A DNA stretch of 64,000 bases from Owenia fusiformis. Taxonomy: Eukaryota > Annelida > Polychaeta > Sabellida > Oweniidae. Below the pieces are notes generated by a model. That model was not told the origin of the DNA and ran no database searches. It saw nothing but the letters and a program-made list of their open reading frames with translations. This document shows, one piece after another, positions 17,401 to 42,800 of the stretch (position 1 is the first letter of the stretch; each line of letters starts with the position of its first letter). Where the stretch lies: the NCBI GenBank assembly GCA_903813345.2, contig CAIIXF020000007.1:2609730-2673729 (forward strand), given 5' to 3'. The position numbers and the translations under genes are program-made.

Positions 17401-20400
17401 TAATCACATCTTACCGTTTCGGTAGCAAACACCCTGACACTGTTGTGACACTTGTAATACATACTGTACTATTTGCTTTATTTGGTAAATTGATAGTTCC
17501 AATATCACTTGTTATAGCTAGAATTGAAATTGATAACATGCATTTCATAAAACATTTATAACTAATTTACTTATAGCTAGGCATGATATAATCATTTTGG
17601 AACAATCAGAACACATTATAGCCATTCTATATTTCACAGCAGATGGCCTGGACTCTGTGAAATTCTCAACCACCGTGTTATCAGGGTCATAAAGTGTACT
17701 CAATTTATCCGGATAAATAATATAATCAAATTGTTCTTATGTCTTGTATTTACCTATTTACTATTGAAAGTGAATAAAGCTACCAGAAAGATGAAATATG
17801 AAAATTAAAAGGTGTGACGTGAACAAACGTATTTTCTAATAAGGGAGTTGCTATGTAGCTGAATAAAGCTATATAATAGATGTCACCAGCATTTTTTTTA
17901 TTTATTTTTGGTTGAACCAGACTGCCAAGGGCTTCAATGGTAAAAACTTGCAATGTTCACTTTATTTCATGATTAATCAAAAAGTGTTGGTTGAATCTGT
18001 CTAAAACTCAAATGGCATGCTATGGGTTGATTCTGTTAATGTACCTATTGTTATTAATTATGATTTTGGTTGTTGAGTGAATAAACCAAGGTTTTGAGAA
18101 GTAACATCAATTGATCAATGGAGATTTGGCACAAACTCTTTTAGAGATCTTATCAGACCATTTTCTTTGATATATTTATCATCTGGGTTTCTCATTTTGA
18201 ATATAGCATGCAGGAAATAGCACACATGAAGGAAGAAATGCCTCAATCCTTCTATACGGCCCCTCTAAGTCCTCAATATACGGAGATGGTGTCACGTTGA
18301 CATATAGGGTCTCTCTGAATTAATCTTGAAATCCTGAAACCTCACGTCTGTGTTCTCCAATGTTTAAGGTCTGGCTTGTTGTCTGGTCTATTGATACCGT
18401 AACGACCCTCGATAGCAAGTTGCTACTACAGCCCATTTGTAGCGGCTAGTCCCTATTGGCTCAGCTGTAAAGCATCAATGTATGGAGTGGAAGATCCTGG
18501 TTCGATTCCCGCATAGGGCATTGAATTTAGCACACCCTTCCTTGTGTCAATATCTGGCTTGTTATCCTAGAGCTCCCCGGAGAGGTCTCTGGTCGCTACA
18601 TTGGTGTCAGACGTGGGATGAGTCGCCTTAGAGTATATCTTGTCTTGGTGACGATGGCGCCAGCCCGGGGTTAGCCATTGAATTAAAGGACACTCCCTTT
18701 CACTACACAGTCGGGCCGTTACTATTACGCAACAGATCTATAGTGCTGCAACCAGAATCCTAAAATAACGGATGAAAATTGAGGTCAAAGGAAATAAAAT
18801 CCTTCAATTGGAGTTGAACAACCTTCTATCAGTTGCTTCCAGATTTCTTGACAGTTTGAAAAACGGGAATATGATGAGTACATGTCAGAATGAAGGATTA
18901 TAAATCAAAATCAATCATGCCTGGCCGAGCTGCTCTAACTTAGCTTGTTATTTCATACAGTAAAGCTACGAGGTATCGTTATGTCAAAGCTATGGTCTGA
19001 ACCTCTTTCTTATTTTCGCCACAACCTTTTCCCAAAACGAAAATGTTAACTTAATGATTGGTTAGTTCTTGTATTGTACCAATTTGTATTGCTACTGAGA
19101 TTGTCCCCATTGATCATCTCTGTCACAATACAGAAAATATCGGGACGGAGGGTACATTCTCAGTAGCAATACAGAGGATCACACGATAAAAACGTTATAG
19201 AATGATTTGAAGTGCAATTGCACTATGATATATTCTGTCTCGATATTCTGTATTGGCACTCGACTTCGTTTTGAGCAGAATATATCCTGTATTGTTCTTC
19301 AAATCATTCAATAACTTATATACTTGCTTATTAGTGTTCGCCCAAGGAGGATTGGCTCCCAGAGTGCAACATGGATATTCTGTCCCATATGAATGGACAG
19401 GAATGAATTTTCAAGAATGCATGTCGTGATACAAAATTCACAATTTTGTTCACTTCAATAACAACATTTCGACGCTTTCATTGTTGGAAATGCTGGGAGC
19501 CAATCCTTCTTGGTGTTCGCCCAAAACTTTTTTTGTCAAATATTCCACTTTTGAATCTGCATTTTGTAGATAATGGATTAACCCACAGATAAAGTTTCTG
19601 ATATCAATACGTACTGTACACTGCAGTTTTCAAAAGAACGTCAGAAATCAAATAGATCAAATGTCGTAAAAAGGCCTATACCTACTGTAGATATGAATCG
19701 GAAATTAAGTAAAAGTTAATTATGTGTGGTTTGATATCGTGGGATTGCTAGAGGGTTTGCAGTGTTATTCCATTATCAGTCGACGTATAATTTTCAAGAT
19801 ACCCATTTGCTTCTTAATCAAACTAGGAATTGACATCGTCGCTTGGGAAGGGACCGAATCTATCATTCTGTCAAATTAGCTAGAAGCAAGCCAGAAAATG
19901 ACTTTACTCATGGATACATTTGGATAGTTACTGATAAATTGATATAAAATACTTTTGTTCCAAAAGGAAGATTTGTTAAAAATGCCAAACGAACTAAGGT
20001 CATGGTTGCTTGTTAACTAATTATTAGCTAACGTTAGTATTTATAAAAATATAGTTTTCGTTCTGGAGAATACGCATGCACTCCTGTAGTATGTTGGTTT
20101 CATCAGGAAAGCTATGTTCCAAGTTTTCATTAAATTGTACTCTAATTTGGTACTTGTCATTCTTGAAAATGACGTACAATTATCATCCTATTCTATCCAC
20201 CACGTTGTTGAAATAAACGCCATAACCATACATGTAGACGTTCACAGGTTCACCTAAAGCAAAACATCCGCTTTCTTGTAAACACTAGTTTCAGATATTC
20301 ATTCTGACTCATTTTTAGTTTTAGGTCTATATCATACTGACATAGCATGATAAATGGGACATCTTTATCATTTGCAGAGGCATGGTTCGGAAATAAGAAC

Positions 20401-23400
20401 ATCATGTATCCCCACGCTAGAGAGCTTCTCACTGCGCTCATTGCCGTGATAAATTACATTGCATTTTGACCAGAATTGATTCCGAGCATCTTTGGATACG
20501 GCCTCTGCCAGGCAGAACTTAATTTCGTCGTTTTCTGCTAGAAGTTGCTGAACTGTGTGGCGTTATCATTTTTGTTGACAGTGTCATTAACGAACCGATT
20601 CATTCTAAAATCTACCTCTGGGAGAAGAAAAGGGAAATGAGATTGCCCCTTGCACAGCTTGTTATAATTCATTGTGAATTGAAATTGGCATTTGCCTCTT
20701 AAAATAATCTATTAGACTAACATTAATTTTTACAGAGAAACAACTTACTTGAGAGAACGAGAGTGTATAGTATTTTAAATGGCCTAGTGTCAATCAGTAG
20801 AATATGACCAACTTTAGTGTTCCTGTAATTGTTTGTTTAAAAATTCTTTCTAATGCACTGCAACTTGTTATACAGTTTTTACACTGATCTGAGTCAGTTG
20901 TAATACTTGTAATTAAAAATACATGTATTTGTTGCTTTGACCCAGTTTCTATAACACTACTCTTTCGAACATATGATTGTATTTCAAACTTGGGATGTGT
21001 GTACAAGTGCGCATCCTTGGTCTGATTCCCATTCCGCAACCAATTCATCCGAATTGCAATCGCCCGAATTTGGATAATTGTGATTCGTACGACTGGATAA
21101 GGACGAGTGTGCTTCGGACTGGATTTGGACAAATGATACCAGATGCAATAACTGAACACTCGCGATGTTATAACTATAAACGAATACAAATCCAATATTT
21201 TTCATTATATTTACAGAAGAGGGACAAGTATACTGCAACAGTTCATGGGACTCTGTGACCTGCTGGCCCACAACTCTAGGGGGGCAATTGGCAACTGCAC
21301 CATGTCCGCCTACGTCTGAGGAATACAGTGTCGTCAAGTCTATGTCTACAAGTAAGTAGTGTTGAATTAATTTGATAAAAGTGGCTAAATCGCTATACTT
21401 TTAACTTTGTTTCAATACCATTAATTAATAAAAGCCTTTCTCTTAAATCTTATTGATTGTACTATTGAATATATTACGGTGAATCGAATGTCATCAGAAA
21501 TATGACAGACTCGCAAATCCATCGATGTCATCATCCATTTTACTGGCGTCGCTGTTTTGTTCACAAATATTGACACGTTCTCTTTTCAAAAGTTGTCATT
21601 AGTGTATTTCTAATTATATGTTCTTGTCTGTTCCTCAGCTAATTGCTCACTGTATTTTCTATTAATGTCTCCTGTATGTATTATTCCTCTTGTAAATTGT
21701 ACTTTTAGAATGTTAATCTTTAAATGCTACATTTCTTCTCATCTTATGCCCCATACTGTTGTAAACTCACTACTGCATTGACCCATGGTACAATAACGTG
21801 CCTGTGTGTATATAAACCATTCTACAATTATAGAAAATGCGACACACCTTTGTCTACCAAACGGTACCTGGGAGCATTTATCTGACTACAAGCCCTGTGT
21901 GGAGGGTATCGGTGGAATGGTCGACGAGGTGAGATACCATTCTTTAACAACAGTATTACCATTGGGAAATAAATCACCTTAGGGAATATAGAATTTCTAA
22001 AAAAGGTTCATACTACAATGAATTGTTCAATAAACACAATATCATATATCAACAGTGAAAGGAAACAATCATGTCAATGCCCACTAAATAAGATGATATC
22101 CTAATCGTAAATGAGGTACACACTGCAATCACAAACACAAGTATGTAATCTCAAATTGCCCCTTACCTCTCAAAAGACTACAAATTGTCGTTAAATTGAC
22201 ATCTAAAGGACCTATACGTTTATTTTGAAGAGTTGTAAGAGTACAGCAAATGCATAAATGCATAGAAATAAAATAAGATTGTGTGAGGTTCAATCAGTGA
22301 CGTTGTTTGCATTAATTGTTTTAGCTAGATGTCTTCTTGAAGGTAACGTAATAGGAACAGTAAATTGCATACCTTTCAACGACACATTTTGCATTTTGAT
22401 CTGATACAGTAAATTAGCCTATATACATTTTACCCAATATGCAAAAAAGCATTTGACATAAATCAATATTGACCGGTAATTTGTTGTGCACATGATACAA
22501 ATCAGTGTTGATTTAAGTCAAAGCACTGACAATGCTTATAGTACCCATTAAGTAAATATAAGTGTTTTATCATCACTTTGATTTTATTTACATATATGAA
22601 CTGTCTATTTTATTTCCTTTGATCTTTGATTTGTCTGATTGACACCTTACTGTTTACATATAGATTTTATAATTCATTTAAATAGATGTATTCCGATTTC
22701 AAAATGCAAAATGGACGTCTCCCAATTTTATAGAATTTTAAGACATTATAAATTGCATAGATATGACCGCTTGCATAGAATTTCAAATGGAAATTAAAAA
22801 TACATAGCCGCTTTAGTAATCGCTTTTTATAGTTCAACTAACCATATTTAAGATTTGAGGGATGTCGTGGATGGCATTCAATGGGGTTGGTTACGTTCAT
22901 GTTTAACTGGAAATGGGAGTGACGAATAATTGTACTACAGTACATACACATGTATCTGTTATAAACGAAACTGTAATGAGGTAGCTTTTATAGGGGTTTA
23001 TATTAGATAAAAGGATTAGGGATCCTCTGCGTTTTAAATGTCACAGTGTAAAAAATCTAATAAGACATATTGTACACTCCCCTCCGTAAGCTTGGCAACC
23101 GGAAGTCTCGTTTTGGATCACTTATCAAAGTCTGTCTGTATATGGCGATTTAAAAGAATCCATCAAATTTGTCATAAACCGAACTATTGTAAATGAAAGA
23201 ACAAAATTAAGATTCACATACTGACAGATTTTGATTTGGTATCCAATGGGAACTCGGTTTGCCGGTTGCCAAACTTATGGAGGGGAGTGTACATGTATGA
23301 ATGAAAGTAGTATAATTGGGTATAACAACAACCAGGTGTCGTCTTATACAAACGTTTTATTAGAAGTTTTACACCCCTTGCTAGTGTATCAAATGTATAT

Positions 23401-26400
23401 ATCTGAATGAATATGCACATAATCTTACTAAAAAGAAAAATAAGTTTATGTTCTTATTTGTGGTAACAATTACTTATAAATATGCTTTTAGGATATTACA
23501 ATATATCTTAGTTTTAGTTCTGCTTCCTCTAACTTTATGTATGCATTCACTTTTATGAGTGACAATATTACAATTGTATCCCCGGCAGACAGGTAAAATA
23601 TATTTATCTGTGTCTCGTATGGACAGGTACAGTATAGATGGATAGGTGGGCTACACAACACAGATAATCGTCCCCTTGGAATTTTGAGGGTATCTCAGCC
23701 ATGTTCCACATATTATATGTATATATCTAGTAATTATTATGATCCCTGCAATCTTAAATACTTGACATAATATTAATTAAGATTTTTACTTTCAAATATT
23801 GTAAAGAAGATAATTAAGTTGAAAAACGCCTGTATTGCTCTCTAAGGCTTGACCCAATTTAATTGTTTTGTTTTTTAGAAGTTTGAGACACAAACACTAA
23901 CTGTGAGGATTATATATTACGCTGGATATAGCCTTTCTACACTGACTCTGATTATAGCCCTGTCAATCTTCTGCCATTTCAAGTGAGTAAATGAACCTAG
24001 TGTTGTCCTATATAACATTTCCCTACATGACAGGTTATCGACCTAATACAGTTCTATCACCAGAGAGGAGAACAGCTCATAAAACCCTGCGTACATGTTG
24101 ATTATGTCAGCTTTGGATGTAATATTATCATTTATTGCTCCATCATTGTACACTCACTCTACTATACCTTGCATTTGGTGTTCATGAGCAACCATTCGGC
24201 TTAATAGTATTACTATTGATTATGTTATTTGTTTTTATACGTCCGTTCTTTATTAATGGTTTATCGGATGACTGTTAGATGTTAATAAGGTATTTGCAAA
24301 AATATACTAAACAATACTATTAGACCAACAGAGTAGCTCATGCATTTTGTAAAGCCTGTTTATATAAATGTGATTTAAAAAAAATCATTACTGAATGTGG
24401 GTAGGAGATATATATGTGAATAGTTAATACTGTTTGTCGCAAACTAAGCCACTTAGTTATTGACGTTTCGGAACATAACGTGTTCCTTCCAAAAAACTAT
24501 GAGAGTTTGAAATTGCTTAAACGTCGGTATGTGGTTTTAAGTTTGGTTGAGACAAACAGTATATGTTTATATGAAAATCATCAAATTCATAGATTTATAT
24601 AAGAAACAAAATTAAGATTCAAGCATTGATCATGATGGTCTTTGATACCCTAGCCGATGAAGATTCCGGTCGACAAACTTACGGAAGTTTATCGAAACTG
24701 ATTATGTTCTTATTGTTATTTTCATTGTTGTTTTCCTACCTATATCACCTTTGCAATAATGCAACAGTTCCAACGATTGCTTATGACCAAAGATCATATT
24801 AGTAAATCTATTGTTTAATGACATTTTTACGTTTTATTTTACGTTTTTGTTTTAACTGAAAATCTAGGGCAGCAATTTTGTTGAAATAATACACTCCATT
24901 TCCAAAAATAGCAGCCATGGCGGTTCGAGGGGATTTGCTACGCCTTGCCGTTGCTGTTATCTAGTTTTGCTTTTGGTCCATCAAGAAATATTATATTGAC
25001 CCTCGGTATAAAACCCATTCTCAATCCCTCCACTATTTTTCATAAACTAAAATGCGTCCAACATGTACACATGTCAGTAGTAGTATGAGGAGCAATAACA
25101 AAACTCAGCACAACTATTATGAGGAAATAAGGACTATTATTCTAAATTATGATCTAAATCGCAAGGAACCAATGTCTCAGCCCCTTAACCTAATATCCAG
25201 GAATCATTGTCAAGTACATTAGGCATTCTGATACTCATAGCATCTTTCTGTTTCACCTGAAACATCTCTCAGGGCTGAGAAGAAATGAGATGTCATGGTT
25301 TATCATGATGACATTTGGTTGCATATACATTTTATAATATTCATATACACTTTGCTTTCTTTAAGGAGTCTACGATGTCTGCGGAACACAATTCACTGTC
25401 ATCTGATAATGACCTTCATTCTTCGAAATGTATTCTGGATTATCATGAACAACATTCTTCAAGCCACACACGATGGCATTGTTCCAACGGTAAGCACTTT
25501 ATAAATATCCATGTCATGACTATGACAAATCTATTTATATTTCAATCTATTTAACTTTATGACCGTGTTTTCACAATTTTCCTTTCGTGCATCCTCATTT
25601 GTCACATTGCTCGTCATATTTGTCATTTATATCATCTACGAATATATACACGTCTATATCTCCATTTTCATGCTTTCATCTTTGATTGATTTCAGTCAAT
25701 GTAAGCCTTCTATTTGCTATCAAAATCCAATAATAAGAATGAAATATGTACACTAAGTCAGTCATTTTATTTACCTCATTACCCCCAATGAAAATAAATA
25801 AAGTACTTAACATCAAACAAAAACACATCCACATATGATTAATATATATAAGATGAAAGGAGACGAATCATACATATTTCACGGATATACTTTACTAGTT
25901 ACAAACTTACATTTGTCAATATTTATGAGTTAGGTTTATTAAAGCAGCATGACCTAATGCCATTACGGGTTCACTAGGAAACACATAATTTACATTCTAT
26001 GGTTGAAGTCTCAAAGATAACTCACTTTTAGGTAAACACGATATATCATAATTGGACATTTCAAATCCCAAAAGAACATCACTGATCTGGTGTAAATACA
26101 ATGGATGAATTAGGCGGAACAAGCATTATTCATGGTTCGATGCATTCAGACATTATACTTTATTACCAGTATGGCATCTCCAAATTTATTTAAAGTCCCC
26201 GTCTAAAGTTTGAAAATATTTTTTTATCATTCATTTACTATTTGTCAGGACTTAAAAAGTGATTTTAGAGATTTTTGAACAAAAAAATTTTTTTGAAAAA
26301 AAAGTTGTAAGCATTTCATTTCTCAAATATTCAAATTTCCCGCCATTTTTCAAAAAAAGTTGAAATTTCTTAATCATCAAATATTTCTTAATGCATTTCA

Positions 26401-29400
26401 AAAAAGATTATATTTTTAACACCAATGCAAAGATTGAACAAAAGGCACACTATTTCAATAATAAAATGTCATATTTAATGGGCCACTTCAATGTTTTAGC
26501 TTATCAAAAATATTTTGAAACATTAGTGATGTCACTAAGGTAACAAAAACGTTTTGAAAAAAATTGAATTTTTTTTTTCGATGTCAATCTTTTCTAAATA
26601 TGCTAGACTTTCATAAAAAACAATGTTGATTGTCTAACCAGGTTAAAAGGAAGAATAAATTATGTTTTAGATATCATTGTACCATTGGTTTCTATGAGAA
26701 CTAAAATTTTGAAATGCATTTTTCTCAGAACCATTTTCATGCACTGATAAGTTCATTTCTCGCTTGTTTATCAACCAATTTTCTTAATTTTTTCGGCAAA
26801 AAACATAGGAGGATGTATGCTATGCATTGGTATGAATTGTGGCTAATTAGAAGATATGAGTGACCTCTAAAATTTGGTTTTAAATAAATTCACAAATTTT
26901 GGAACAAAAAGTCTATCAAAAACCACTTTTTGAAATTAAAAAAAAAGTTTCACATATCACACTTTGATAACATTGGGTAAGACTACAATATAAGCCAAAG
27001 TGGTTTAAACTTTACATGGGGCCTTTAACAATCAGATTAATACTCATTTCTTTTTACTTTTTTTGAATTTGTAGTGGATTTGTAAAGCTATCATCGCAGT
27101 ATTTAACTATCTACAAACCACAAATTTTTTCTGGATGTTCGTAGAAGGCCTTTACCTGCATATGATGATAGTATGGGCGTACAAGTCGAGCAACATAAAA
27201 ACTAAGCACTATGCAGTGATAGGATGGGGTGAGTTGTTGATCACTTTTTAAATACGAGAATATCTATGATATGGATGCTATCTGTAATATAAAATACAAT
27301 TGAGATATATTATTTATAATTCAAGACATTTGTTTTGAAATCTGATGCAATAGCCAGTGAAGACGACAAAGTTCAATAACTGATGCCCGTAGAGATGTAT
27401 ATTGACATACTCATATAGGTAAATCATTGGAAGGATGTATTGTTTCATTGAACATATTTACTTTTAGGTTCATGCAATTAAACTGTGATGTATTGTCTGC
27501 AATATATCAGATCTCTAACACCTTGGGTAAAATAACCATCTCATCCATTTGTATTGAGGTACTAGTAGTTATAAAATGGCAAACGATGACTCCATCCTTT
27601 GATACATAAACAATAATTTGACGAGTGCTCAGCTAGAGGTTATGTACAGAGTGACTCCAAAAACATTACCCTATAACATATTTTGTATACATGTTTTTCC
27701 AAATACCTGTATTTGCAGGAATCCCTATTATTTTTATAATATTATGGATCTGTGTGAAATCTCAAATTGAGGATACTGTGTAAGTATATAAAAACTACTC
27801 CAGTTTTAAAAGCTTCTAAAAATTAGGTTTCCTCGACCCACCTTTGTCTTGAAAATACAAAATATCTAAGAAATAGTCAATGAGACAAGATGAATCGGGG
27901 AGACTGTTTTCAGAAGCAAACCTAACTTACAATCCTCTTCAAAGGTTTGGCAATCGAAAGCGTCATTTTAAACCAGTGTATGCTTGTTTATGTTTGGCGT
28001 TTTACAAATTCACCAAAATCATTAAGTGCAGACCTTGTGTAACAAGATTCAAACATAAACATGGTTAAACACACTGTCCAATGTGACTTTTCGGTTGATA
28101 GACTTATGAGGGGGAGGGGTTGTATATTAGACAGCTATATCATTTCGGTTTTTACAAATATTTGCTTATAGGTCTTCCAACTTTCTTTATCATAGCATGG
28201 GCTACGGTGAGAGCCCGCTATTATGACATTATTGAGTAAGTAGTGATCCATCATACTTGCATGAATCTTAATTAGTTGTGCCATTGTTCTAATTCTATCT
28301 GATGTCAATGAAATGATCGATTCGGTGGTGCATCTTTGCAGCTTATTATTAATAGATGGCGTATTTGCGGTAGCTTGTGACCGATGCATATTCACTATAA
28401 TACAGGGTGTCCATATTGTCTCTTTACAATTACAATACAAAGTCTGTGAAAAGTGGAAATATACTTTATGGACACCCTATATATAATTGCAGGTTATGTC
28501 TCCTAGAAACAACATCCAGTGTGGAACGAACGTTTTTGGAAGCCCAACTGTTCTGGGCTACCCAAGTGTTTTTGAAAATTAAGGCTCATTTATCCATAAA
28601 TGAAAGATTTTTCTTTAATTGGACCACTGCTTGAATATATTGATATATTCTATTTAGATATTCTACTGCACCTGAGTGTTCCATGGTGCAAAAGTTGCAC
28701 ACCCGGGGATCTTGTTCAAGCAGAAGGGGCATGCACATGTATATATTGCTTAAAAATTAAGACCATGGTTTAACGAAAATATACCAATATTGAACCTCAA
28801 GAGGAGGGAAAACAAAGAGTTCAAAGATAACCTCAACTTCACTGGATATTTTTCCGAATAGAGATGACCCTCATCATATGGTCAAATGACATAGACGCTA
28901 ATAAAAACAAAATGTAGGCAAGGTGTGTCCAATACCAACCAATCAGAACACGCTATTTCACGGAACTGCATTCCGTTATATAACCAACAATAACGCATTT
29001 GTTGTATGACTGTCAAAGTGAGAACTTGGCCTACAGATTGAAATTGATGCTTTGCCAACTTGACCACGTGCAAAAAGTTTCATTGAAATGCATTGTGGCT
29101 GCTTCATTCAACTCAGTCGTTGTTTCCTAAACTTTGCATTCCCACTGCGCAATTGAAATAATTCAAAGATTTGGAAAAACACCTTCGATGGACTGATTCA
29201 GCACGCAACGCACTGAGTCCAGGGCTTAAATCCTTAATGCAAAATGTAAAACGCTTCGAATAATATAATCAGTTGAATGTGATGTTAATTGCTGATGTGT
29301 TTACCAATTTCACGCCAATATAAATATGTAAGGAATATGTTCCCATCGATTAAAACATCAAAATTGATGTGTGATAATTTAAAAATTAGATGGAGGAAAT

Positions 29401-32400
29401 TTTGACAATCGAAGGTGGTAAGCAAGAAAGGTAAATATGGGGTCATCTCTGAGCTCTTGGGGTTTCCCTCATCTTTTCAGTGCCTCCCTCCTGAAGGCTC
29501 GACAAAACAACTATGACATCTATAAACTGATACAATAACTTAATTTTGCTAAGGCTTGGAGTGTCAGTCATTTGTCGATGTGCCATGCACACTCTCTAGG
29601 TTTTGTGATTTAGTAAATGTTTGTGCCACTGCATGGGAACGTCTTGGAGAAGCAGTTTATCACAAAGTGTTGAATTGATGTTGATTGGTTAGCATGTGTC
29701 TAAATTTGTGATGACGTCAAATTGGGTCAACAAATATAATATCATAAATTACATCACAAGAAATATAACCTTTGATTTAAACGCATACCTTTTCATAATT
29801 ACAAGATCTATTCTGATCAAAACAGAATAAAATATTCATATCCATGAAGAAACGTCCTTTGTTCTAAAATCATCAAATTATAGCTTTTGTTTGAAATTTG
29901 TACCCCCATGCTATCACTATTGATTCTATTTTTGTGGATTAAAATACATCAATATAACGCTTTACTATGTAATTACAGATGTTGGTTGCCAATGAAAAAC
30001 TCACAAATACATTTCATCTACATCACACCAGTGCTGGTCGTTTTATTTGTAAGTATAGAATTAGTTACCGTATATATTATAGTTAGTTAGTTAAATATTT
30101 ATTATAGTGTCACAGGCTATACAATATATGAGACATATGATTTACAAAACAGGCAATAGCCCCCAGCCGTCTCCGGCTTATGAGACACTTTATATCAATG
30201 AATTTACTGTGATTGTTGCAATTTCTTTGTTCGATTCAGTCCATTGATTGTCCAGTTTCGATATGATTAAATGGTGAGTCTATGTTATTAGTTTAAATAT
30301 CAAACTAATTACTGTGTACATATATGTCGACATTAATCTGTGCCATATGAATTCAAAAATGAGTCAAATGTTTTTAGTTATTACTCAAGTCGCACAAATA
30401 AGTCAATGTGTTTCTTTTCTTTACAAAATATAATCCTATGGTTTTTCTTGGTTCAGTAGTTCTGCGATGAAACAAGCTTATTAGCCTATAACTTACAATC
30501 TAATTGATGCCATAATCGTGTACATAGGCAATATGCAGTTGTCGAATATCCAAGATCGACTGGATGTAAACAAGGGTATTACTGAATTAAAGTTACCCAA
30601 GGCAAAATACACATGTCAGTTGTTATGCCTTTGTGTATAATTTATCCACAATCCTAATGTGTGTGTGTGGGGGGGGTTGATAGTCATTTTGGAGAACCGG
30701 TCATTTTCCTGAGAGAGCGTACTAGATATTCCTGCTGTAGTTGTTCCCTAGTTTTCCTGGTGTCAATATAAACATTGCGGTACTTTGTGGAGTGTCTAAG
30801 GCGATGTTTCGATTTCAGTATGCACATTTTATCTCTATGTGATGTCAAGGCTACAAACACGATACCTGATCGGTCCTGTTGAGATTGTAGTCTTTTGACA
30901 CCATCAGGGGTAGTTTCAATTTTGTCATCCATCAATAGTTCATCAAAAATATCATTCACAGTTTGAGCCAAGTCCGACGTTTGATCCAAATTCTTAATCA
31001 CAATACAGTTGTCCTCAATTTCAATCGCATTTGAATTCACAGAATCAGATTTGTCTTGATTTTCCAAAATATCCAAACGAGCGTGCATATTATCAATGTT
31101 ATCACGTAAAATACTGATCTCAGTGTCAATCTTCAACTTTACCTTCGTTATGTGGCTGTCTAAAATATCCACAAATTGTTGTCGCTGTAAATCCAGTTGT
31201 TGTACTAGACGGTTCGTACTATCCATCAAATCCTCCACCTTTTGTTGTAATGCAACTATAACTGTCATTATATCATCTGTAGTAGTTGTGTTGTTATTGC
31301 TGTTCAAATTTGAAATTTTACCAGTTGTGGAAAGATTACTTGTGGAAGCCATATTGGATTTGGCTACATTTTTTGTTGGTCCTTTTGAAATCTTTGGAGA
31401 TTGTCCTGTTGTTTCTGGTTTAGTTTTCCTTGAATATTTAGACTTCCCCATAGTCTTGGTACCTTTATACAATAGTCCAATGGGGTAATTCAGGAAAATT
31501 CTACATAAACACTGGCAAATTTGACAAAATCTTGAGACAGTTTTATACAGTGTGTGCAGTGATTCAATGACCTTGACCTATAATATGTAATATATTATAC
31601 TTACATACTAAAGAATATACATGTACTATTAAAATTTGAAAAAACATAATGAAGCCTCATTATAAATTTATGATATATTATATCCCGATTCCACAGATCT
31701 TGTGCTCAATAGGCAATGGTAAAGACTTATTTTGTATATTTGTTATAATTGTAGATAAATATTATTTTCCTATCGACAATTGTTTGGGTCTTAGTTCTAA
31801 AGATACGAGCATCACATTCCATTGAAACACGACAATATAGGTAAGTTATGTAACAGCTAAAATCACTTACAGGGTCCCCCTGCTACAACTGAAAGCGAGT
31901 ACCTATTGTGATATACCATTGGACAGATCATACAAAGTTACGTTAACTAACCTGATGTCTTAATATTTAGTGTGCCCTCCTCCAGCAGATTGTATTGCGT
32001 CAAAATTAGAAGGATGTGACCTCAGCAATACATAAAAAATTAGTGTTTTTCGCATTCCACTTCTTACAAAAAATCGTCACCACTATCCATTGCCCATCAG
32101 TATACTACACATCTTTTCTGATGCCAGATACGCCACATTGCAATGTTTCTAGGTCTTTGGTCACCTCAGATGATAAAATGTGGCAATTTGTGAAATAGAT
32201 TGACAGATATCAGATATATGCCAATCAACATAACTGTGGTTGATCTTTCCAATGATATATCACACTAGAAACCACTAAGGACAGGATTATTGGACACCCT
32301 GTCTTTTAATCACTAATTATTAGTTATATGCACATATCTAAATTTTGAACAACGCAACCAAAGATAAGGAGTAGTATACTTTGAAAGAGCAAAAATACCT

Positions 32401-35400
32401 ATTATTCTAAACCAAAGGATATAAGGTTAGACTCCCATTTCCCATAAACCTTTCCAAATTGTGGTTACAGTTATTAATTACGTAGCAATGTCTATAAGAT
32501 AAATTAAATACAATGTGTATCTTTATTGCTAAGAACTTACACCTCGAAATAATACTGTTCACCGATGTACATCAAATTCAAATTTTACAAGATACATAGC
32601 ACAAAATAAGCATCTTTTTCCTCCAGGAAAGCTGCCAAATCCACTCTGATACTCTTTCCACTTCTTGGTCTAACATATGTGTTGTTCATCACTCCACCCG
32701 GCGATGATCCGGGAGTCAACGCAGCCTTCCTCTATTTCAACGCAATTTTACAGTCTCTCCAGGTAAGGGCTTCCCAGGGGTTACATGTATTTAATGTGAA
32801 TCATTGATGGTTATACAGTTAATAAAAGGTGTTAAAGAACATTTAACAGCGTTTCTACTGATCACTATATTTTGTGAAATTACAGTATAATAGTAACCTA
32901 ATATAATTAGAATTATTGTTCCGCGTATAATTGTGAATAGTGTGGGAATATTCTAAGTATTTGCTGCAGTGGCATATAGTAAAACATAATTTTCATCACA
33001 TCGTACATGATAATCACAGTGTTGATGTTATTTCATTTATTTCCAGGGATTCTTTGTCTCGCTGTTCTATTGCTTTTTAAACGGAGAGGTTAGTACAGAA
33101 AAGGAGTCAGTAAATAGCATGATAGCACAGTAGTTGATAAGTTGAAATTAAAGGTCCCTTTATTGGTTTAATTAATGATCCATATCTTGTTTTCAAAACT
33201 AAGGAAATGTTTGTGACATTGAAAAGCTTGGTATTAATTTTCAAAAAGGCCAATATTTTCGAATTTCTGCCATTTAAGGAACAAAAGTTTAGATTAAATC
33301 AAACAATGTGTAATGATCATTTTATACATACACGAAATCTTAAAACAGTATATATTTCACTGGTCAGTATCAAGCGCACCGAATATCAGTTATCTTATCA
33401 ACTGTAAAAACCCTAGGGTTCCGATAAGCTTCCCGTATAAAACAATATGGCTGCTCCAGGCGAGTCAACTGGATCAGTCCATTTTTAAGAAATAGGGGGG
33501 ATTTTGTAAAATCCAGTTGATTGAAATTGTCTTGGAGATAAAGTAATCCGTTTATAATGATTCTAAAAACATTATTGAGAGAATGATTGTTCAAAGAATG
33601 CATGTACAACAGCCAATATAAATGTATGTATTAGAACTGCTTTGTTTCATTTCGAGGATATTTCATATGCCAAGCTGTGTACTAATACGTTATGTGGAAA
33701 GGAGCACGTGGGTTATCGCAAACAATTTCAGAAGGTTATATCTTGGATTATGAGTATTTTCTGACAATGAAGACAAGTTTATCTTTTAGATCAATTCATT
33801 ATCTCAAAGAAAATTATGCACAGTAATGATAAATTCAAACAAACTCGGAGATATTTAACTAGCAATTAACCCATCAACACACTTTTTGACCCCATTTTGA
33901 AGATGTTGACCCCATTTTCACCAAAAATGCAATCATTTTTTACAATGTTTAATGCATTACTATTCTTTATTTTGATGTATCAAATAGTTCTTGAAAGAAA
34001 AACTTAATTGCATTAAGATAAGTGTTCCCCATGTTATTTCTCCATTGAAAAATCTCATGCTATCCATTGGTTTCAGTTCATTTTGGTCATCCAAATTGAA
34101 TATCCTTAAAGTCCCTGGAGCAATCAAATTTTCCTTTTAGGAAATCGAACATATGCATTCAACAATATAATAATAGGTTGCATTTTTGGTGAAAATTAGG
34201 TCAACATTTTTGAAAAAGTATGTTGATTGGTCCATTGCCCCTTCAATATCACTTAGGTCTGATTAACTAAATTATCATTATATATACTTTTCTTGAAGAT
34301 AACGAATGGATCTAAAAGATACACCCATGTTCATGATCAAAAAATATTCATAATTCAAGTTAGAATCGTTTGAAATTGTTTGCGATAACCTACGTGCTCC
34401 TTTAGATGCCAATTTTTCCTTATTACAAACACATAGAAGATACCAAAACTTCACCCATAAATGTGAAATTGGTTTGTCAAGATAAAAAATCTCCCTTTTA
34501 TAAATGTGTGACCGATCAATAATATAATAATGCTATATAAGAGTTAGAGGTATAAAGTAGATTATTTCGATGAAAACTAAAATTATCGAAATCGACACTT
34601 CCCGTCCACCATCTTTGATGCGAAGGTAACGGCCGTTACCTTCGCTTGATACTGACCCCGTACCGTGTATTTCTCTGAAATACTTTCCTGTGCTTATCAA
34701 TTATACTCTCGCTTAATTTTCAACCAAATATCTTTCACTGGTTTAATAAAATAATAGATGAGCCCTGCAGCTTAACTTTACATTAAACTTTACATGGAAC
34801 CTATATTTTTACTTCAAAGTTCTTCGTTTATTTTCGGATAAATGTGTCTTTTAAGTATTCCTAGATTGTATAGTGGTTTTACTTCAGATTTTGTTTTAAC
34901 CTTAGTGGGTTTATTTGTTATATTTCGTTGTATGTATAAAAATATCGCAAGAAACCAAATATTCAGTAAAAAATGAAAATTGGGAGAATAAAATTAGAGA
35001 AAAACATAATGGCAAGATGAAAATTGAGAAATTGTATATACAGATGCTATCCCAAATTGTGATTCAATTCAATTCCTCTGTTTATTACATTTCAGGTGCG
35101 GAACGTTTTAAAACAGAGATATTACAGATGGTTGGACCAAAGGACTATAGGTGGCGGCAATAGTCGCATGTCAGTGACTCAGATAGAGGCTAAATCAGAT
35201 TGTGAGTCTCGAAGGGCCTCGAGACTGAACTCAGCCATATCTATAAATGGTAGATTGGATATACCAAAACGAAAATCTAGTCAAGCAAGGTCCAGTGTAT
35301 CAACCGGTACTACCATATTAGAATTCTCAAATAAAACTGGTCAAAGTCAACCTTTCAAAATTGGGGAAACAACTCCACTCAAACAACAGACTGACGGGGA

Positions 35401-35554
35401 AACAACCCCACTTAAACCACAATCTGATGCGGTTATGGCAGTGGAGAGCGCACCGTCTTGTTCTGATGAAATGTTGCCAGTTATCCACCGAAATCAGAAT
35501 GGAAAGATAGACAGTAATGGAAACGATACAAATGTCCATCTTTGTGTTGAATGA
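11347..35554 (+). CDS. Secretin-family (class B) GPCR, CRF/diuretic hormone 44 receptor-like
   Basis: A peptide-hormone receptor of the plasma membrane, expected by family to signal mainly through Gs/cAMP. The assembled exons are 11347-11479, 21217-21351, 21834-21928, 23879-23982, 25366-25489, 27075-27228, one of 27719-27779 or 28172-28235, then 29979-30048, 31755-31840, 32627-32762, 33047-33088 and 35096-35554. Every junction is GT-AG and the phases agree, giving 533 codons with the second TM4 exon. Exons 2-3 carry the hormone-binding domain (YCNSSWD, CWP, PCP, NGTW, YKPC). Exons 4-11 carry seven membrane segments. Diagnostic motifs are LRCLRNTIH and FILRN (TM2), NFFWMFVEGLYLH (TM3), KIRAS before TM6 and FYCFLNGEVR after TM7. 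The RCLRN...FILRN pattern favours CRF/DH44 receptors over calcitonin-type ones. The tail is long and Ser/Thr-rich with RRAS and KRKSS sites. The ATG has an in-frame stop five codons upstream but no evident signal peptide. Confidence 0.9.
13735..14478 (-). mobile_element. Non-autonomous DNA element, family shared with 26190-27028
   Basis: The left end (TTAAAGGCCCCGTGTAAAGT, then CCACTTTGGC and TGTGATATGTGAAACC) is the reverse complement of the right end of the element at 26190-27028. Its right end (AAACTTTACTAGGGCAAAT) resembles the other element's left end. An internal block containing GTGATGTCAC also matches. Both copies are AT-rich with no protein, and each lies in an intron of the GPCR. 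Confidence 0.72.
14577..14855. repeat. 72-bp tandem repeat, about 3.8 units
   Basis: The unit contains TGCTATACAGACATTCACAA and ATCAGTTTATTTGTAGATGT, with starts 72 bp apart (14641, 14713, 14785). The first unit is more diverged. Being 24 codons long, the unit keeps a plus-strand frame open, but no start, acceptor or known domain supports translation. Confidence 0.9.
16673..17213 (-). pseudogene. Possible decayed coding sequence of unknown family
   Basis: Two adjacent minus-strand frames read like one broken protein. Positions 17213-16989 give NLAFDIGVTKLL, SLSITKDIMYNTEILDE and KIDIKRNEFCAKDIGR; positions 16885-16673 give SFNTIVNRETLLDAADMFC and MLDRYIVENMKDIVALI. The residue mix is protein-like rather than repeat-like, and the frames would join through a frameshift near 16900-16990. 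I recognise no family. It may be a remnant of a mobile-element protein or chance. Confidence 0.25.
18447..18735 (+). mobile_element. tRNA-derived SINE
   Basis: The head has internal RNA polymerase III promoter boxes: TGGCTCAGCTGTAAAG resembles box A and GGTTCGATTCCC matches box B. CCCTAT...ATAGGG recalls an acceptor stem. A GC-richer tail follows (GGCTTGTTATCCTAGAGCTC..., GTGGGATGAGTCGCC). The tail has no tRNA meaning, which favours a SINE over a working tRNA gene. A related tail (AACAAGCCAGATA on the reverse strand) lies inside the foldback at 53283-53772. Confidence 0.7.
19086..19173. mobile_element. Short foldback element
   Basis: The ends TGTATTGCTACTGAGA and TCTCAGTAGCAATACA are perfect inverted repeats around about 56 bp. 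No coding capacity. Confidence 0.7.
19194..19315. mobile_element. Short foldback element
   Basis: The ends GTTATAGAATGATTTGAAG and CTTCAAATCATTCAATAAC are inverted repeats with one mismatch. A second inner pair (ATATATTCTG / CAGAATATAT) makes most of the 122 bp able to fold. Confidence 0.72.
19344..19512. mobile_element. MITE with terminal inverted repeats and a 10-12 bp target duplication
   Basis: The ends AAGGAGGATTGGCTCCCAG and CTGGGAGCCAATCCTTCTT are inverted repeats. The direct repeat GTGTTCGCCC flanks the element on both sides (19334-19343 and 19513-19522). A target duplication of this size is typical of Mutator-like elements, which is inference. A related end (GGAAGCCAATCCTCCTTG) is at about 36297-36314. 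Confidence 0.8.
21217..21928 (+). other. Hormone-receptor domain exons (exons 2 and 3 of the GPCR)
   Basis: Exon 2 is 21217-21351 and exon 3 is 21834-21928. Together they encode the cysteine-rich extracellular hormone-binding module. Exon 2 has YCNSSWD, TCWPTT and APCPPT; exon 3 has LCLPNGTW and DYKPC. The class B Trp/Cys pattern and three glycosylation sequons (NSS, NAT, NGT) are visible. The exons join within an AAA codon (phase 1), and exon 3 ends on a codon boundary before the TM1 exon. Confidence 0.9.
23071..23293. mobile_element. MITE with 32-bp terminal inverted repeats
   Basis: TGTACACTCCCCTCCGTAAG...CAACCGG at the left is matched in reverse by CCGGTTGCC...ATGGAGGGGAGTGTACA at the right. 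It lies in GPCR intron 3. A diverged copy of the same end pair lies at about 27923-28129. Confidence 0.82.
24428..24562. mobile_element. Short foldback element
   Basis: The ends ATACTGTTTGTCGCAAACT and AGTTTGGTTGAGACAAACAG are inverted repeats, with a further inner pair (GACGTTT / AAACGTC). It lies in GPCR intron 4. Confidence 0.7.
26190..27028 (+). mobile_element. Non-autonomous DNA element, about 840 bp
   Basis: The ends TTAAAGTCCCCGTCTAAAGTTT and AACTTTACATGGGGCCTTTAA are imperfect inverted repeats. The interior is AT-rich with poly-T/poly-A tracts and no protein. It lies in GPCR intron 5, ending 46 bp before the TM3 exon. Same family as 13735-14478. Confidence 0.75.
27719..27779 (+). other. 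Alternative TM4 exon, version a
   Basis: Bounded by TTTGCAG and GTAAGT. It reads G-IPIIFIILWICVKSQIEDT-V in the phase left by the TM3 exon (one base carried in, two carried out). It keeps the Gly-X-Pro start and the conserved TM4 Trp. At 61 bp it is exactly one codon shorter than version b and is followed by the same ECL2/TM5 exon starting CWLP. Confidence 0.85.
27923..28129. mobile_element. Diverged MITE between the two TM4 exons
   Basis: TTTGGCAATCGAAAG at the left and CTTTTCGGTTGATAGAC...GGGGAGGGGTTGTA at the right resemble the ends of the element at 23071-23293. The copy is too diverged for a clear boundary. Confidence 0.5.
28172..28235 (+). other. Alternative TM4 exon, version b
   Basis: Bounded by GCTTATAG and GTAAGT. 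It reads G-LPTFFIIAWATVRARYYDII-E in the same phase as version a. The AWA core and the YY near the end are closer to the CRF receptor TM4 pattern, so this may be the ancestral form. It is 64 bp long. Confidence 0.88.
28398..28482. mobile_element. Very short foldback element
   Basis: ATACAGGGTGTCCATA at the left and TATGGACACCCTATAT at the right enclose about 50 bp. The ACAGGGTG terminus recurs in the window at 57704 and 63114. Confidence 0.6.
30090..31490 (-). mobile_element. Probable non-LTR retroelement fragment carrying an ORF1-type gene
   Basis: The unit comprises the 262-codon minus-strand frame at 30684-31472 and about 590 bp of 3' sequence. That sequence ends, on the minus strand, in an AATAAA followed by short TTAA/AACT repeats near 30090-30110, as the 3' ends of some LINE families do. 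No reverse transcriptase or endonuclease frame was seen, so the element would be partial or dependent on another for movement. Boundaries are approximate. It lies antisense in a GPCR intron. Confidence 0.5.
30684..31472 (-). CDS. Coiled-coil plus RRM-like protein, retroelement ORF1-type
   Basis: 262 residues, intronless, lying antisense in the GPCR intron between exons 29979-30048 and 31755-31840. The first 75 residues are rich in Lys, Ser, Thr and Asn. Residues about 70-135 form a likely coiled coil (VALQQKVEDLMDSTNRLVQQL, IDTEISILRDNIDNMHARLD). Residues about 150-250 look like an RNA-binding fold (CIVIKNLDQT, VKRLQSQ, GIVFVALTSHRDKMCILKSK, YRNVYIDTRKTREQLQQEY). Coiled coil plus RRM-like fold is the layout of ORF1 proteins of non-LTR retrotransposons and of many orphan single-exon invertebrate genes. 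A second ATG at 31451 (MGKSKYS) could be the start. The frame is intact, so it is either recent or retained. Function is inferred only from layout. Confidence 0.6.
   Translation of the reverse strand: MYKGTKTMGKSKYSRKTKPETTGQSPKISKGPTKNVAKSNMASTSNLSTTGKISNLNSNNNTTTTDDIMTVIVALQQKVEDLMDSTNRLVQQLDLQRQQFVDILDSHITKVKLKIDTEISILRDNIDNMHARLDILENQDKSDSVNSNAIEIEDNCIVIKNLDQTSDLAQTVNDIFDELLMDDKIETTPDGVKRLQSQQDRSGIVFVALTSHRDKMCILKSKHRLRHSTKYRNVYIDTRKTREQLQQEYLVRSLRKMTGSPK
33697..34404. mobile_element. Foldback element with about 34-bp terminal inverted repeats
   Basis: AAAGGAGCACGTGGGTTATC...AACAATTTCA at the left pairs with TGAAATTGTT...GATAACCTACGTGCTCCTTT at the right, with one mismatch. The interior (about 640 bp) is AT-rich, has a short direct repeat (TTGACCCCATTTT) and no protein. 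It lies in the last GPCR intron. Confidence 0.83.
34620..34645. repeat. Perfect 26-bp palindrome
   Basis: The half-site GCGAAGGTAACGG is followed immediately by its exact reverse complement. It is unusually GC-rich for this intron. It could be a relic of a foldback element or a protein-binding site; nothing nearby decides. Confidence 0.85.
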
Positions 35555-36964
35555 TTGTACTGCGAGGAACATCAGTTATTTACATATTCGATATTCAACT
35601 TTCATAGACACAAACCGTATTATGTAGTGAATAATGCCAAGATTATGTTTTTGTAACATACTTAATACTATACTCAGTGTGTCAAAAAGCAGATGATATC
35701 TATTATTTATATTAAATTGTAAATTATTATTTATATTCAGGTCATTGAATGTAGTATATCTCAAGCATGATTTTGGTTCACTTTCACTTATTATTTATTT
35801 AAGTATGACTTACGTTACGAGGCAAAAACTAGGAACAATTGTCCATCTATTGGCTAGAAAACTGTATATACGGTCATCATTTAAAAGCACTGTATATACC
35901 CCATACACCAAGTCAGCATTAGCCTTATGAAATATATTCTCCAATATTATATAGTCAATTTTGGAAGTCCCGAAACTTTTGTTTATCTTTCTATTCAGAA
36001 GGAAATTATTAATATTGAAGAATCTGTAAATGCAGATGAGAGCTTCACGAATGAATTGCAAGGAGAATGACCAATCTTAACCTTATATCAACATAGAACA
36101 TGTTGTTATTTTCTGACATCACAATTGACTACATAGTGATCATAAATGATTTGAACTAATATTTTGACCCATGATTTTTCTAAGGAAATATGACCAAAAC
36201 TAGCGATTCAAATTCTGAAGTGAAAAAATGGCGACTGTTTGATTTTAAATTTTGTACATGACTCCATGTAAGGCAGAATATCGAGTTGAAACACTGGAAG
36301 CCAATCCTCCTTGTTAAATATATTTAATTAGAAGCGCTTGCCATCCTGAAAATGTCTCTTAGGATTTTATCGTTTTTCGTTTGTTCAAATTGAGAGCTGA
36401 GAAAAAAATTCTGCAACACAGACGATTAAGCTGTAGGGGCCATAGCATTTTATTAAAATGCATGAAATCGTGTAACCTGTCCATATCATGCACTTGTATT
36501 TATAACACTGGTGATCCGCTCGATTACGCTGGTTACCGAAACGGTGCATCACCAGTGTATAAGTTCAATACGAGGGAACTTACTATCTTTCAAGACAGTG
36601 GAATCAAGATTACTGTCAAACTAGATAAAATGTAGCATTCTTACTTATGGAATACAATTTGAGTTAATAAATATGCATATAATAAAAAGATATTTATCGC
36701 TAATTAATTATTATATTATTTATTCTTTCAACAACATAGTGATTATGTTAAAATGTCACAAAAGTATCCCGCTATGTTTGCTTCATAGTAATCAGTATAG
36801 CCTTATTAATATTTGCTTCATCCTAATTAAAATTACATTTTCTCTGTAAAATAGAGTTACTTCCTTGAAAGTGATTTTCTATCTGCGTTTGTAATTTGCC
36901 CAGGTAATTACGAGCATTTGCAAAATCAACTGATCAACCTATTTTATGGGAAATTCATTTCAAT
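35555..36964. other. 3' flank of the GPCR, no gene seen
   Basis: Contains the GPCR 3' UTR and flank. A fragment resembling the end of the MITE at 19344-19512 lies near 36297-36314. No exon with supporting splice sites was found. Confidence 0.5.
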
Positions 36965-37145: not shown

Positions 37146-38205
37146 ATTTAAATGAGTTTGCCATAAAATAGTAGGCCAATCCGTCAGCCGACAGTTAATT
37201 CTCGAATGCTACCTTAGTTAGCTGAGAGCTATCAGTGAATTGAGAACATTGGAACAGTACATGTCAAAACATTTTTATTATACATATTAGGAGAGAGATT
37301 ATTAAGACATTTTAAATTATATTTTGTTGATTTATTTATATTTGTCATTCACGGGCCTAAAGCCTGTAATCTCAGTCATATTTGCTCTACGACGGGCGTA
37401 CGGCGGGCGAAACTTCCCACAATGATATATACAAAATATATATATGTAAAATCTACATCGTACAGCTTATCCCATATTTTATGCTGCATATTTCTCTCGA
37501 TTGTGGGAAGCAACGGCCACCGTACGGTTGCTGTATATCAAATGCGACTGAGGCATTACACCACCCATGTTACATACACATATTATACAAATTGTTTATA
37601 AAATATAAGAATTGAAACATGCACATCATCTGGTTTGTCTAGTTGAAACATAATACACAAATATAACCTACCACTATTCTATTTAGATTTAAATGAGTTT
37701 GCCATAAAATAGTAGGCCAATCCGTCAGCCGACAGTTAATTCTCGAATGCTACCTTAGTTAGCTGAGAGCTATCAGTGAATTGAGAACATTGGAACAGTA
37801 CATGTCAAAACATTTTTATTATACATATTAGGAGAGAGATTATTAAGACATTTTAAATTATATTTTGTTGATTTATTTATATTTGTCATTCACGGGCCTA
37901 AAGCCTGTAATCTCAGTCATATTTGCTCTACGACGGGCGTACGGCGGGCGAAACTTCCCACAATGATATATACAAAATATATATATGTAAAATCTACATC
38001 GTACAGCTTATCCCATATTTTATGCTGCATATTTCTCTCGATTGTGGGAAGCAACGGCCACCGTACGGTTGCTGTATATCAAATGCGACTGAGGCATTAC
38101 ACCACCCATGTTACATACACATATTATACAAATTGTTTATAAAATATAAGAATTGAAACATGCACATCATCTGGTTTGTCTAGTTGAAACATAATACACA
38201 AATAT
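37124..38205. repeat. Tandem duplication, two 541-bp copies
   Basis: Positions 37124-37664 are repeated at 37665-38205 with no difference noticed by eye; landmarks such as TTTGCTCTACGACGGGCGTA recur exactly 541 bp apart. Each copy contains a 190-bp foldback (TCTCAGTCATATTTGCTCT ... CAAATGCGACTGAGGCATT) related to the element at 63805-63968. The near identity means a recent duplication or an assembly artefact. Confidence 0.92.
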
Positions 38206-39870: not shown

Positions 39871-42800
39871 CTGGAATATATAATGTAAATAGTAAATATA
39901 CAATCAATCGTGCAATGAAATGACTAAAACTTCAGATCTAGGAATGGAAACTTATCCTTAGCTTAGCCATATCCGTGATCATGAAAATGTTGAAGCAATT
40001 TATCCCACAACACATTGGCATTTTTCTATGTTGTGGATGTTTTTCAAGATGGTGGATTAATCGACGATACGTCTCCTGCCTGTCCACATCCTGGTCTCTT
40101 GGGGCGATCATCGTCTAATGGTGTGCCATTGGATCAATTTATGATTTTTATTCTTAAACCAAAACTGTAACATTGTAACTACAAACTAAGATGATTAGAC
40201 GACCTGACTTTAGTTCTTCTTTTTTAGAGCGTAGAAAAGTGGTCCAAGAGAAAAAATTCAAAGTTTTAGTTCTCATTAAATCCAATGGTACATATATATA
40301 AGAATACAAAAAACATGGTAACAACTTATTTTCGTCATATTCAACAATGCTTTAATTTGAAAGATTGGCATAATTAGAAAGAATTAGAATCTCTAAGAGA
40401 AAGACGACAATTTTTGATATTGTATTCCTTGGCAAATGATGTACTCCCGGTATTTTTCGCGTGCGATTTCGTGATTTTGTAAAATGTTGCCGAGTGTTTT
40501 TAGGCGATAAATGGGATACTAAGTAAATTGGCACAGGTTACAAGAACCTGTTGTTAAAGTAGATAATGGGGAGGGGTCCATATTTTGCCATAGCCAAAAT
40601 AAAAGAAAGAACAGAGAAGAACATTTTTGACTATCCATCTACCTTAGCAGACTAAAGAATCTGATACAATAATTTGAACATTTCCAGAAATTAAACCTTT
40701 TATGTATAACGGCTCATGTTGTGAAAAGTGTAGACATTGTTGCATCCCTCCATGTTGTTAGCTTGTGACATTAAAATTACCAGCTAACAAGCTAGACCCC
40801 AGCATGGCTACTGCATGCCTAACGTTAACGATTGAACACATGATTGCATATTAATTGAGAGCAATAAGAGATACAACAGTCACGCAGTGGTGAGTTTTGG
40901 ACTATGTTAGCCACTGAATAAGCTCTATGTTTAACTTGGCAGCTATTGCACTACATTTGTTAAAAATGGACCATGTACTATATACCGTTAATAACGTATA
41001 AATGCAAATTTTGAAACTCTGTTTTAATGCTTTGCAATTTTAAAAAGAAAATAGGTAAAATGTTGAATAAAACAATAATATGGATATACATTTTGTTTGG
41101 ATTCGTAGGATTATCACTGCTTTGCAACTGGTCTTTATATGTCACAGTTCGAAATAGAACATTGGTTCAAAGAGGGATTGACACCGAGATTGCAGAAACT
41201 AAAAATACCAGATTAATGCAGCTAAATAACATATCTGTTAAGGGTGAAAACAGAATGGAGGATACTGTTAATGGAAGTCTCAGGAATGGTCAAACAGTAT
41301 CAAAAAATGGACATAAAAGCACTACATTATTGCACAATGCCTTCCTAATGTATTTAGATCAAGGGGATGGGCATATGGTACAATTTACATTATTTCTGTA
41401 TGCATCCTGGAAATACGTCATGAGTCATCGGTACCTCAAATCCAACGTTACTATCGACAATACAACATCCCTGCCAGACATCATATTTGACTTGGTTGTG
41501 TATTGTCACCCAGAATCATGCAAGCTTCTCCCATTAGATTGCATCCCTATTGAACATGGCAATGTCTTAGAGGCTGTTCCAAGATGCTGGTACATTCCGT
41601 CTGGTCGACTCCAAAATCATCCAGACTATCCCTCTAACTATGGCTACATTAACACATTTACGTTTCTACTTGATGATAACTTGGGTCAGATTGCAAACAG
41701 ATATGATAGGATTTTGAGGACAGATACTGATGTGTTTATCTCTCCAGCAATATTAGGTTGGCCCGTCAAATATCCTTTTGTTACTGGCCGAGGGGGTTAT
41801 GGAGTACCATTTAGTGAAAACAGATTACGGGAAATATCAGCAAAACTTGGTTTGCGTCATCAGCACATCTCTAACATTGGAAGCAGCTGGTATGCAGAGC
41901 CAGGTATATTCCTGAAAGCTGCTAAGCTTGCATTGAAACTTTCAGTTCACTTTTATAACAATGAATTCAACAAATCCCTACCAGGTCTTGAAGGTGTATT
42001 TAACAAAACTACCGATGGAGAATGGCCAAAATGGTGGCGCGGCGTTTCAACAATGTATGGTAGTGAGCTAGCCGTCAATCATCTCATCCCCAATCTCACT
42101 CAAGACCACATAGCTTTTCGATATATGGACAAGGAAAGTACGGATGGTGTGACACCAGTAATGAAGGCACCTCATATACATTGCTGGCACACAGACATTG
42201 AATTCAACAAGTTTGTATTTACAGATAAACTTGTACGCTTTATTAGAACAGATATTAAAAAATTATGGATGCAGAATGAGACAATGTTATACTTTGGAGA
42301 TTTGGATGTATCTGGGATGACCATTAGGCAATATGTGACTTATATAGCATGGAATGGAGTCCTCAAATACGTACCACATATGTTTGAAAAAATGATGGCG
42401 CATTAGCCTTACTTATCAGATATCACCACAACCAATGAAATTCTGTATATCATTGCCCGTATCAACGGAAAAACAAATCCCAAAGAACAATATACCGTTT
42501 CCCACTCATTAATTTTAGCATAAAATCATTTACAACAAGATATTAAATATGAATGCAGATGGTTGTGTTATGTTTTTCAATTGCTTTTCAAAGTAACTTT
42601 CTACCAATAATAACATTTGGTTCACAAATACACATTTTTAATAAAAATATTTGATACATCATCTAAAAATATTTGGTACCTGATGGAACTAGGTGGTCAT
42701 TTATTTCGAATAATAATTTGAAAGTGGTTTCAAACCTAATGATAGCTATTTGATATCATGATAATTAGGATTGCGATTGAGTCATAAAATTAAAATGGGA

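Follow-up and report, generated by a model that had tools for sequence, protein, structure and literature searches.

Does a single CRF/DH44-type receptor gene of Owenia fusiformis hold two alternative exons that encode outer TM4, and would it give rise to two receptors rather than one? The question arises in a stretch of 64,000 nucleotides (C7:2609730-2673729, hereafter the window), where the original prediction placed two consecutive exons, here called TM4a and TM4b, that were proposed to be used one at a time. The analysis described below favours this reading. With a probability of roughly three in four, one CRF/DH44-type gene carries two tandem, diverged exons for outer TM4 and the start of ECL2, of which each transcript would use a single one, giving two receptors.

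Gene structure and receptor subfamily

Positions 21217-35554 on the forward strand of the window hold a secretin-family receptor gene with GT-AG exon borders (Table 1). The gene model comprises 11 exon positions, from 21217 to the stop codon ending at 35554: two for the ectodomain, one each for TM1, TM2 and TM3, a single one for TM4, and one each for ECL2, TM5, TM6, TM7 and the tail. The 5' exon or exons with the start codon and signal peptide lie outside the model. The joined protein matches the Pfam family 7tm_2 (PF00002) with 217.0 bits when TM4b is used (form b) and 219.6 bits when TM4a is used (form a), and the HRM family with 50.0 and 50.1 bits, respectively. Thus, the 7tm_2 region and the HRM ectodomain of a secretin-family (class B1) GPCR are both present.

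Table 1 Features of the receptor gene (positions within the window)
Feature	Position	Strand	Basis
Ectodomain exon, first part of Cys-rich hormone receptor domain	21217..21351	+	exon joining; HRM PF02793 in joined protein
Ectodomain exon, second part	21834..21928	+	exon joining; HRM PF02793 in joined protein
TM1 exon	23879..23982	+	exon joining
TM2 exon (SLRCLRN...)	25366..25489	+	exon joining
TM3 exon; 3' end is the inner start of TM4 (VIGW)	27075..27228	+	exon joining
Alternative exon TM4a, 61 bp, GIPIIFIILWICVKSQIEDT(V)	27719..27779	+	borders, frame, simulation, Pfam gain, mutual match
Alternative exon TM4b, 64 bp, GLPTFFIIAWATVRARYYDII(E)	28172..28235	+	borders, frame, simulation, Pfam gain, mutual match
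TGCATG, beginning 23 nt past the last base of TM4b	28258..28263	+	
ECL2 (CWLP, Cys-Trp) to TM5 exon	29979..30048	+	exon joining
TM5 to ICL3 exon	31755..31840	+	exon joining
TM6 exon	32627..32762	+	exon joining
TM7 exon, 42 bp	33047..33088	+	exon joining
C-terminal tail exon including stop codon	35096..35554	+	exon joining

Comparison of the part from TM2 to ICL3 with the sequences of PDB entries placed CRFR2 first for both forms. Form b scored 137.6 bits against CRFR2 (E-value 3.9e-39) and 86.6 bits against PAC1, the best other receptor; for form a the corresponding values are 134.8 bits (2.7e-38) and 89.4 bits, the latter for the secretin receptor. Within PDB sequences, to which this ranking is confined, the CRF receptors hence stand above all other class B1 receptors. 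With CRF receptors 2 and 1 as the best solved relatives, assignment to the CRF/DH44 type of the secretin family (class B1) is supported, in line with the original prediction.

The two forms were further compared by exchanging the TM4 exon alone and scoring against the PDB structures. Form b scored higher not only for CRFR2 but also for CRFR1 (6pb0, 130.3 vs 126.7), the calcitonin receptor (9uwm, 82.9 vs 80.8), the CGRP receptor (6e3y, 74.0 vs 72.3) and the PTH2 receptor (7f16, 77.8 vs 76.7). Form a scored higher for PTH1R (8ha0, 86.0 vs 77.7), the secretin receptor (89.4 vs 82.7), VPAC1 (6vn7, 83.5 vs 79.1), VPAC2 (7wbj, 82.2 vs 79.9), GIPR (7dty, 78.9 vs 74.9) and GLP1R (27xk, 68.8 vs 62.7), and PAC1 gave a mixed result (6m1i, 89.3 for form a vs 86.6 for form b; 6lpb, 85.9 for form b vs 84.2 for form a). 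TM4b tends to lie slightly nearer to the CRF receptors and TM4a nearer to PTH1R and the secretin and VPAC receptors; as the gaps in score are small, this is a tendency and no classification.

Borders, phase and frame of the exon pair

TM4a and TM4b are flanked by the TM3 exon on the 5' side and the Cys-Trp (ECL2) exon on the 3' side, with a gap of 392 nt from one to the other. Their phases are equal (two bases in, two bases out), each acceptor falling behind the first base of a codon and each donor behind the second; both have the donor gtaagt, and the acceptors of the pair are ttgcag and ttatag. When the borders were re-read, the coordinates, the lengths of 61 and 64 bp, the phases and the splice sites all proved to be as first described. 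The IGW that opens TM4 is encoded by the TM3 exon and by neither member of the pair. TM4a and TM4b thus each supply outer TM4 and, as far as the conserved Cys, the beginning of ECL2; they are TM4 exons, as had been claimed, but the “full TM4” ascribed to each has to be reduced to this outer part. Such content fits the splitting of TM4 across two exons in deuterostome members of the family, as described in the accessible part of PMC1764030. The swapped segment amounts to 21 residues in form a and 22 in form b, so that TM4b exceeds by one the 21 residues of CRFR1, CRFR2, GIPR, PTH2R and CALCR. Both exons keep G-x-P and the central Trp, and the outer end is polar in each.

Inclusion of a single exon leaves the frame open to the stop codon, giving 487 codons with TM4a and 488 with TM4b (counted from the second ectodomain-side exon found). 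When TM4a and TM4b are joined together, the frame ends at a stop after residue 241, and when both are skipped, at a stop after residue 208; several exon junctions lie downstream of either stop. Transcripts with both exons or with neither are out of frame and stop early. The predicted loss of frame upon double inclusion or skipping is hence confirmed and, as far as the frame decides, so is the claim that only single inclusion gives a receptor. In summary, adjacent homologous exons of equal phase are each open on their own, and no full protein results from their joint inclusion or skipping, as is characteristic of a mutually exclusive pair.

Early stops ahead of several junctions would also suit a gene in which one exon served mainly as a poison exon, double inclusion or skipping lowering the receptor level and thereby tuning the amount of receptor, not its kind. 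A good class B TM4 is not required of a poison exon, however, whereas both exons encode one and each alone is open to the stop; we regard this explanation as improbable.

Chance resemblance and homology of the two exons

A spurious open segment might pass for a second exon. The frequency of such segments was estimated by a rule that selects open phase-1/2 AG..GT segments of 58-67 bp with G-x-P, Trp and hydrophobicity; it was defined post hoc from the exons and serves as a guide, not as a formal probability. On the forward strand of the window two of 220 open segments satisfy the rule, namely TM4a and TM4b, and on the reverse strand none of 214. Among 1347 strands of 64 kb simulated from a dinucleotide model of the window, two segments passed, and none when good splice sites were demanded as well. 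In a rule-free scan, each exon was aligned to all open AG..GT segments in 19000-35600 that match its phases and differ from it in length by at most 6 bases. The top match of TM4a among 69 segments was TM4b and the top match of TM4b among 57 was TM4a, each with a score of 39, and the runner-up scores across the pair were 8 and 11. Non-self matches of the nine other internal exons reached 16 at most (ECL2).

The contribution of each exon to the Pfam 7tm_2 match was determined for the part from TM2 to TM7. A copy with TM4 masked scored 157.0 bits, whereas TM4a and TM4b gave 189.7 and 186.9 bits, each about 30 bits above the masked copy. Two decoys, open hydrophobic segments of the window, reached 161.0 and 174.0 bits (gains of 4 and 17). 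By these measures both have the appearance of genuine class B TM4 exons. That one decoy gains as much as 17 bits, and that the rule was set once the exons were known, speaks for one exon being a chance segment with no past as an exon; this is nonetheless very improbable, given the simulated strands, the mutual best match and the higher scores of both exons than of both decoys.

The exons are considerably diverged. After the first Gly, TM4a and TM4b have seven of 19 compared residues in common, and their 60-nt flanks match at 37-38%. A duplication, if there was one, would consequently be old on the time scale of intron turnover; alternatively, one exon may stem from another receptor gene. A shuffle test of their similarity gave 0/5000, which is weak evidence because shuffling destroys the hydrophobic-then-polar order common to TM4 segments. 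Searching the window by tblastn with each exon peptide revealed no second, closely similar copy of any exon; the search also missed the pairing of TM4a with TM4b and is too weak for diverged copies.

The divergence bears on the possibility that one exon is a duplicate that has died or is decaying and is rarely if ever spliced, so that the gene makes one receptor. Codon usage supports neither exon (TM4a ranks 176 and TM4b 77 among the 220 open segments), TM4b has its one residue in excess of the solved receptors listed above, and TM4a scores a little below TM4b against the CRF receptors; all three points are compatible with decay. Still, both exons are open and retain phase, consensus donors, G-x-P, the central Trp, the polar outer end and the gain on the 7tm_2 profile. 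In an exon of such divergence that had long been dead, some of these TM4 features should have disappeared, and their retention renders a dead duplicate unlikely. Judged by its sequence features, the exon pair is real and well formed, and it is likely to be functional.

Copy number and paralogues

The assembly (498 Mb, 525 contigs) was scanned for further copies. Among the best 40 of 2964 first-look candidates, which were those scored, the TM4 region occurred in full once, and an unmerged allele or a second gene copy is accordingly an unlikely source of the pair among the candidates scored. All 67 other matches listed fall in a repeat at about 28907-29248 and not in the TM4 exons. This dispersed repeat lies in the intron 3' of TM4b and has at least 67 other matches in the assembly, 70-92% identical and often in two halves. 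A single scan of viral_contigs matched eight stretches, none of which is a relative.

Six secretin-type paralogues were read between TM3 and ECL2. Two of them (L024 and L028) were classed by PDB searches and the other four (L021, L023, L025 and L026) by search matches and by eye; the remaining stretches, adhesion-type or unclassified by eye, were scanned loosely. In this by-eye reading of the TM3-ECL2 interval, none of the six showed two credible TM4 exons. L021, L024 and L028 have one clear 61-bp TM4 exon each with a gtaagt donor. In L023, TM4 and Cys-Trp/ECL2 occupy one open frame at about 5552-5688, as if the intervening intron had been lost, L026 has one 67-bp TM4 candidate without Pro, and no TM4 exon was identified between TM3 and ECL2 in L025. 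Paralogue segments were dropped by eye for having no Pro, low hydrophobicity or poor donors; these include a 70-bp open hydrophobic segment of L021 (8822-8891) and two overlapping ones of L024 (5359-5419). As none of the six paralogues shows the pair in this reading, it may be recent or lineage-restricted. All six, classed largely by eye, are located on contig C7, as is the gene in the window; matches taken by eye as adhesion-type are found on several contigs other than C7.

Choice between TM4a and TM4b

The 392-nt gap argues against simple steric exclusion, which depends on short spacing, and the GT-AG sites with gtaagt donors argue against a U2/U12 clash. Looping-out by inverted repeats was considered as well; the nine pairs found are weak (14-32 nt, 78-93% identity) and none is convincing. 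Downstream of TM4b lies a TGCATG, a motif of the RBFOX type. With a density of 0.30 per kb for this motif on the forward strand of the window, its position by TM4b may be due to chance. Exon choice is likely to be controlled by the reading frame together with regulated splicing.

Relation to known receptors

The nearest solved relatives of the receptor by sequence are vertebrate CRFR1 and CRFR2, in which we know of no doubled TM4 exon. A different receptor, the ecdysis triggering hormone (ETH) receptor, belongs to class A. In insects, its forms ETHR-A and ETHR-B are specified by mutually exclusive exons from TM4 to the C-terminus, according to the accessible sections of PMC5572281. The two genes are alike in that a neuropeptide GPCR gene has two exons beginning at TM4, known to be mutually exclusive in the ETH receptor and predicted to be so in the window gene; apart from receptor class, they differ in that the window gene would swap outer TM4 and the ECL2 start only.

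Within the secretin family, TM4 is involved in oligomerisation or dimerisation and in partner contacts, as stated in the available text of a review (PMC3659299). The same text describes a rat receptor with an altered TM4, PAC1-TM4, that activated neither cAMP nor PLC in one cell type and showed low potency in another, while the calcium response was kept. This variant results from a 12-to-6-bp change plus substitutions elsewhere, its mechanism is called unclear, and in contrast to TM4a and TM4b no duplicated exon is described for it in that text. The claim that no such case has been described in this receptor family is not contradicted for the CRF receptors by the literature searched, but has to be qualified for the secretin family, to which the PAC1 variant belongs.

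CRF-type signalling has probably been diversified on the hormone side in a beetle, where, in the excerpt available, the DH37/DH47 gene is described as a likely case of exon duplication with alternative splicing (PMC6585902); there the hormone is doubled, whereas in the window gene it is the receptor. For DH44 receptors, the accessible part of a review on neuropeptide receptors of insects (PMC3510462) makes no mention of splice forms. A search of the open-licence PMC literature yielded no account of a CRF-type receptor with a doubled TM4 exon, which is weak evidence of novelty; as far as this limited search reaches, the pair would be the first such duplication described for this type of receptor.

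Predicted consequences of the exon swap

In the favoured reading, one gene with single use of TM4a or TM4b, the spliceosome would connect the TM3 exon through either of the two to the Cys-Trp exon, and transcripts of both kinds would exist. Transcripts with both exons or neither would be degraded or yield a dead protein. The two receptors would be identical except for the swapped segment, form b being the longer by one residue. The swap would most likely alter contacts at TM4 between receptors or with partners and, next to the peptide pocket, the shape or charge of ECL2, so that signalling or trafficking would be changed more than basic hormone recognition. In view of the role of TM4 in oligomerisation and the behaviour of PAC1-TM4 (PMC3659299, accessible text), altered coupling or partner choice is the most plausible effect. 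More tentatively, and with appreciable doubt, the gene might supply two pharmacologically distinct CRF-type receptors, one with a CRF-like and one with a secretin/PTH1R-like segment, as a means of switching signalling bias, the choice of partner or the preferred ligand between tissues or stages. If both forms are made, they would constitute a natural receptor pair, a built-in domain swap that probes outer TM4 and the start of ECL2.

Other features of the window

The intron between the ECL2 and TM5 exons contains, on the reverse strand, an open frame of 297 codons from stop to stop (30687-31577). It has no Pfam match, and we would guess from its make-up that the product is a mobile-element protein. 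Downstream of the receptor gene, a long open frame on the forward strand (41060-42403) matches DUF7164 (PF23741) with 425.9 bits and apparently represents a single-exon gene. Two open frames on the forward strand, 37239-37598 and 37780-38139, lie 541 bases apart and have identical translations; this pair is evidently a recent direct duplication. A second nearby repeat is seen on the reverse strand, where the open frames at 58738-59046 and 59480-59728 share a long identical stretch.
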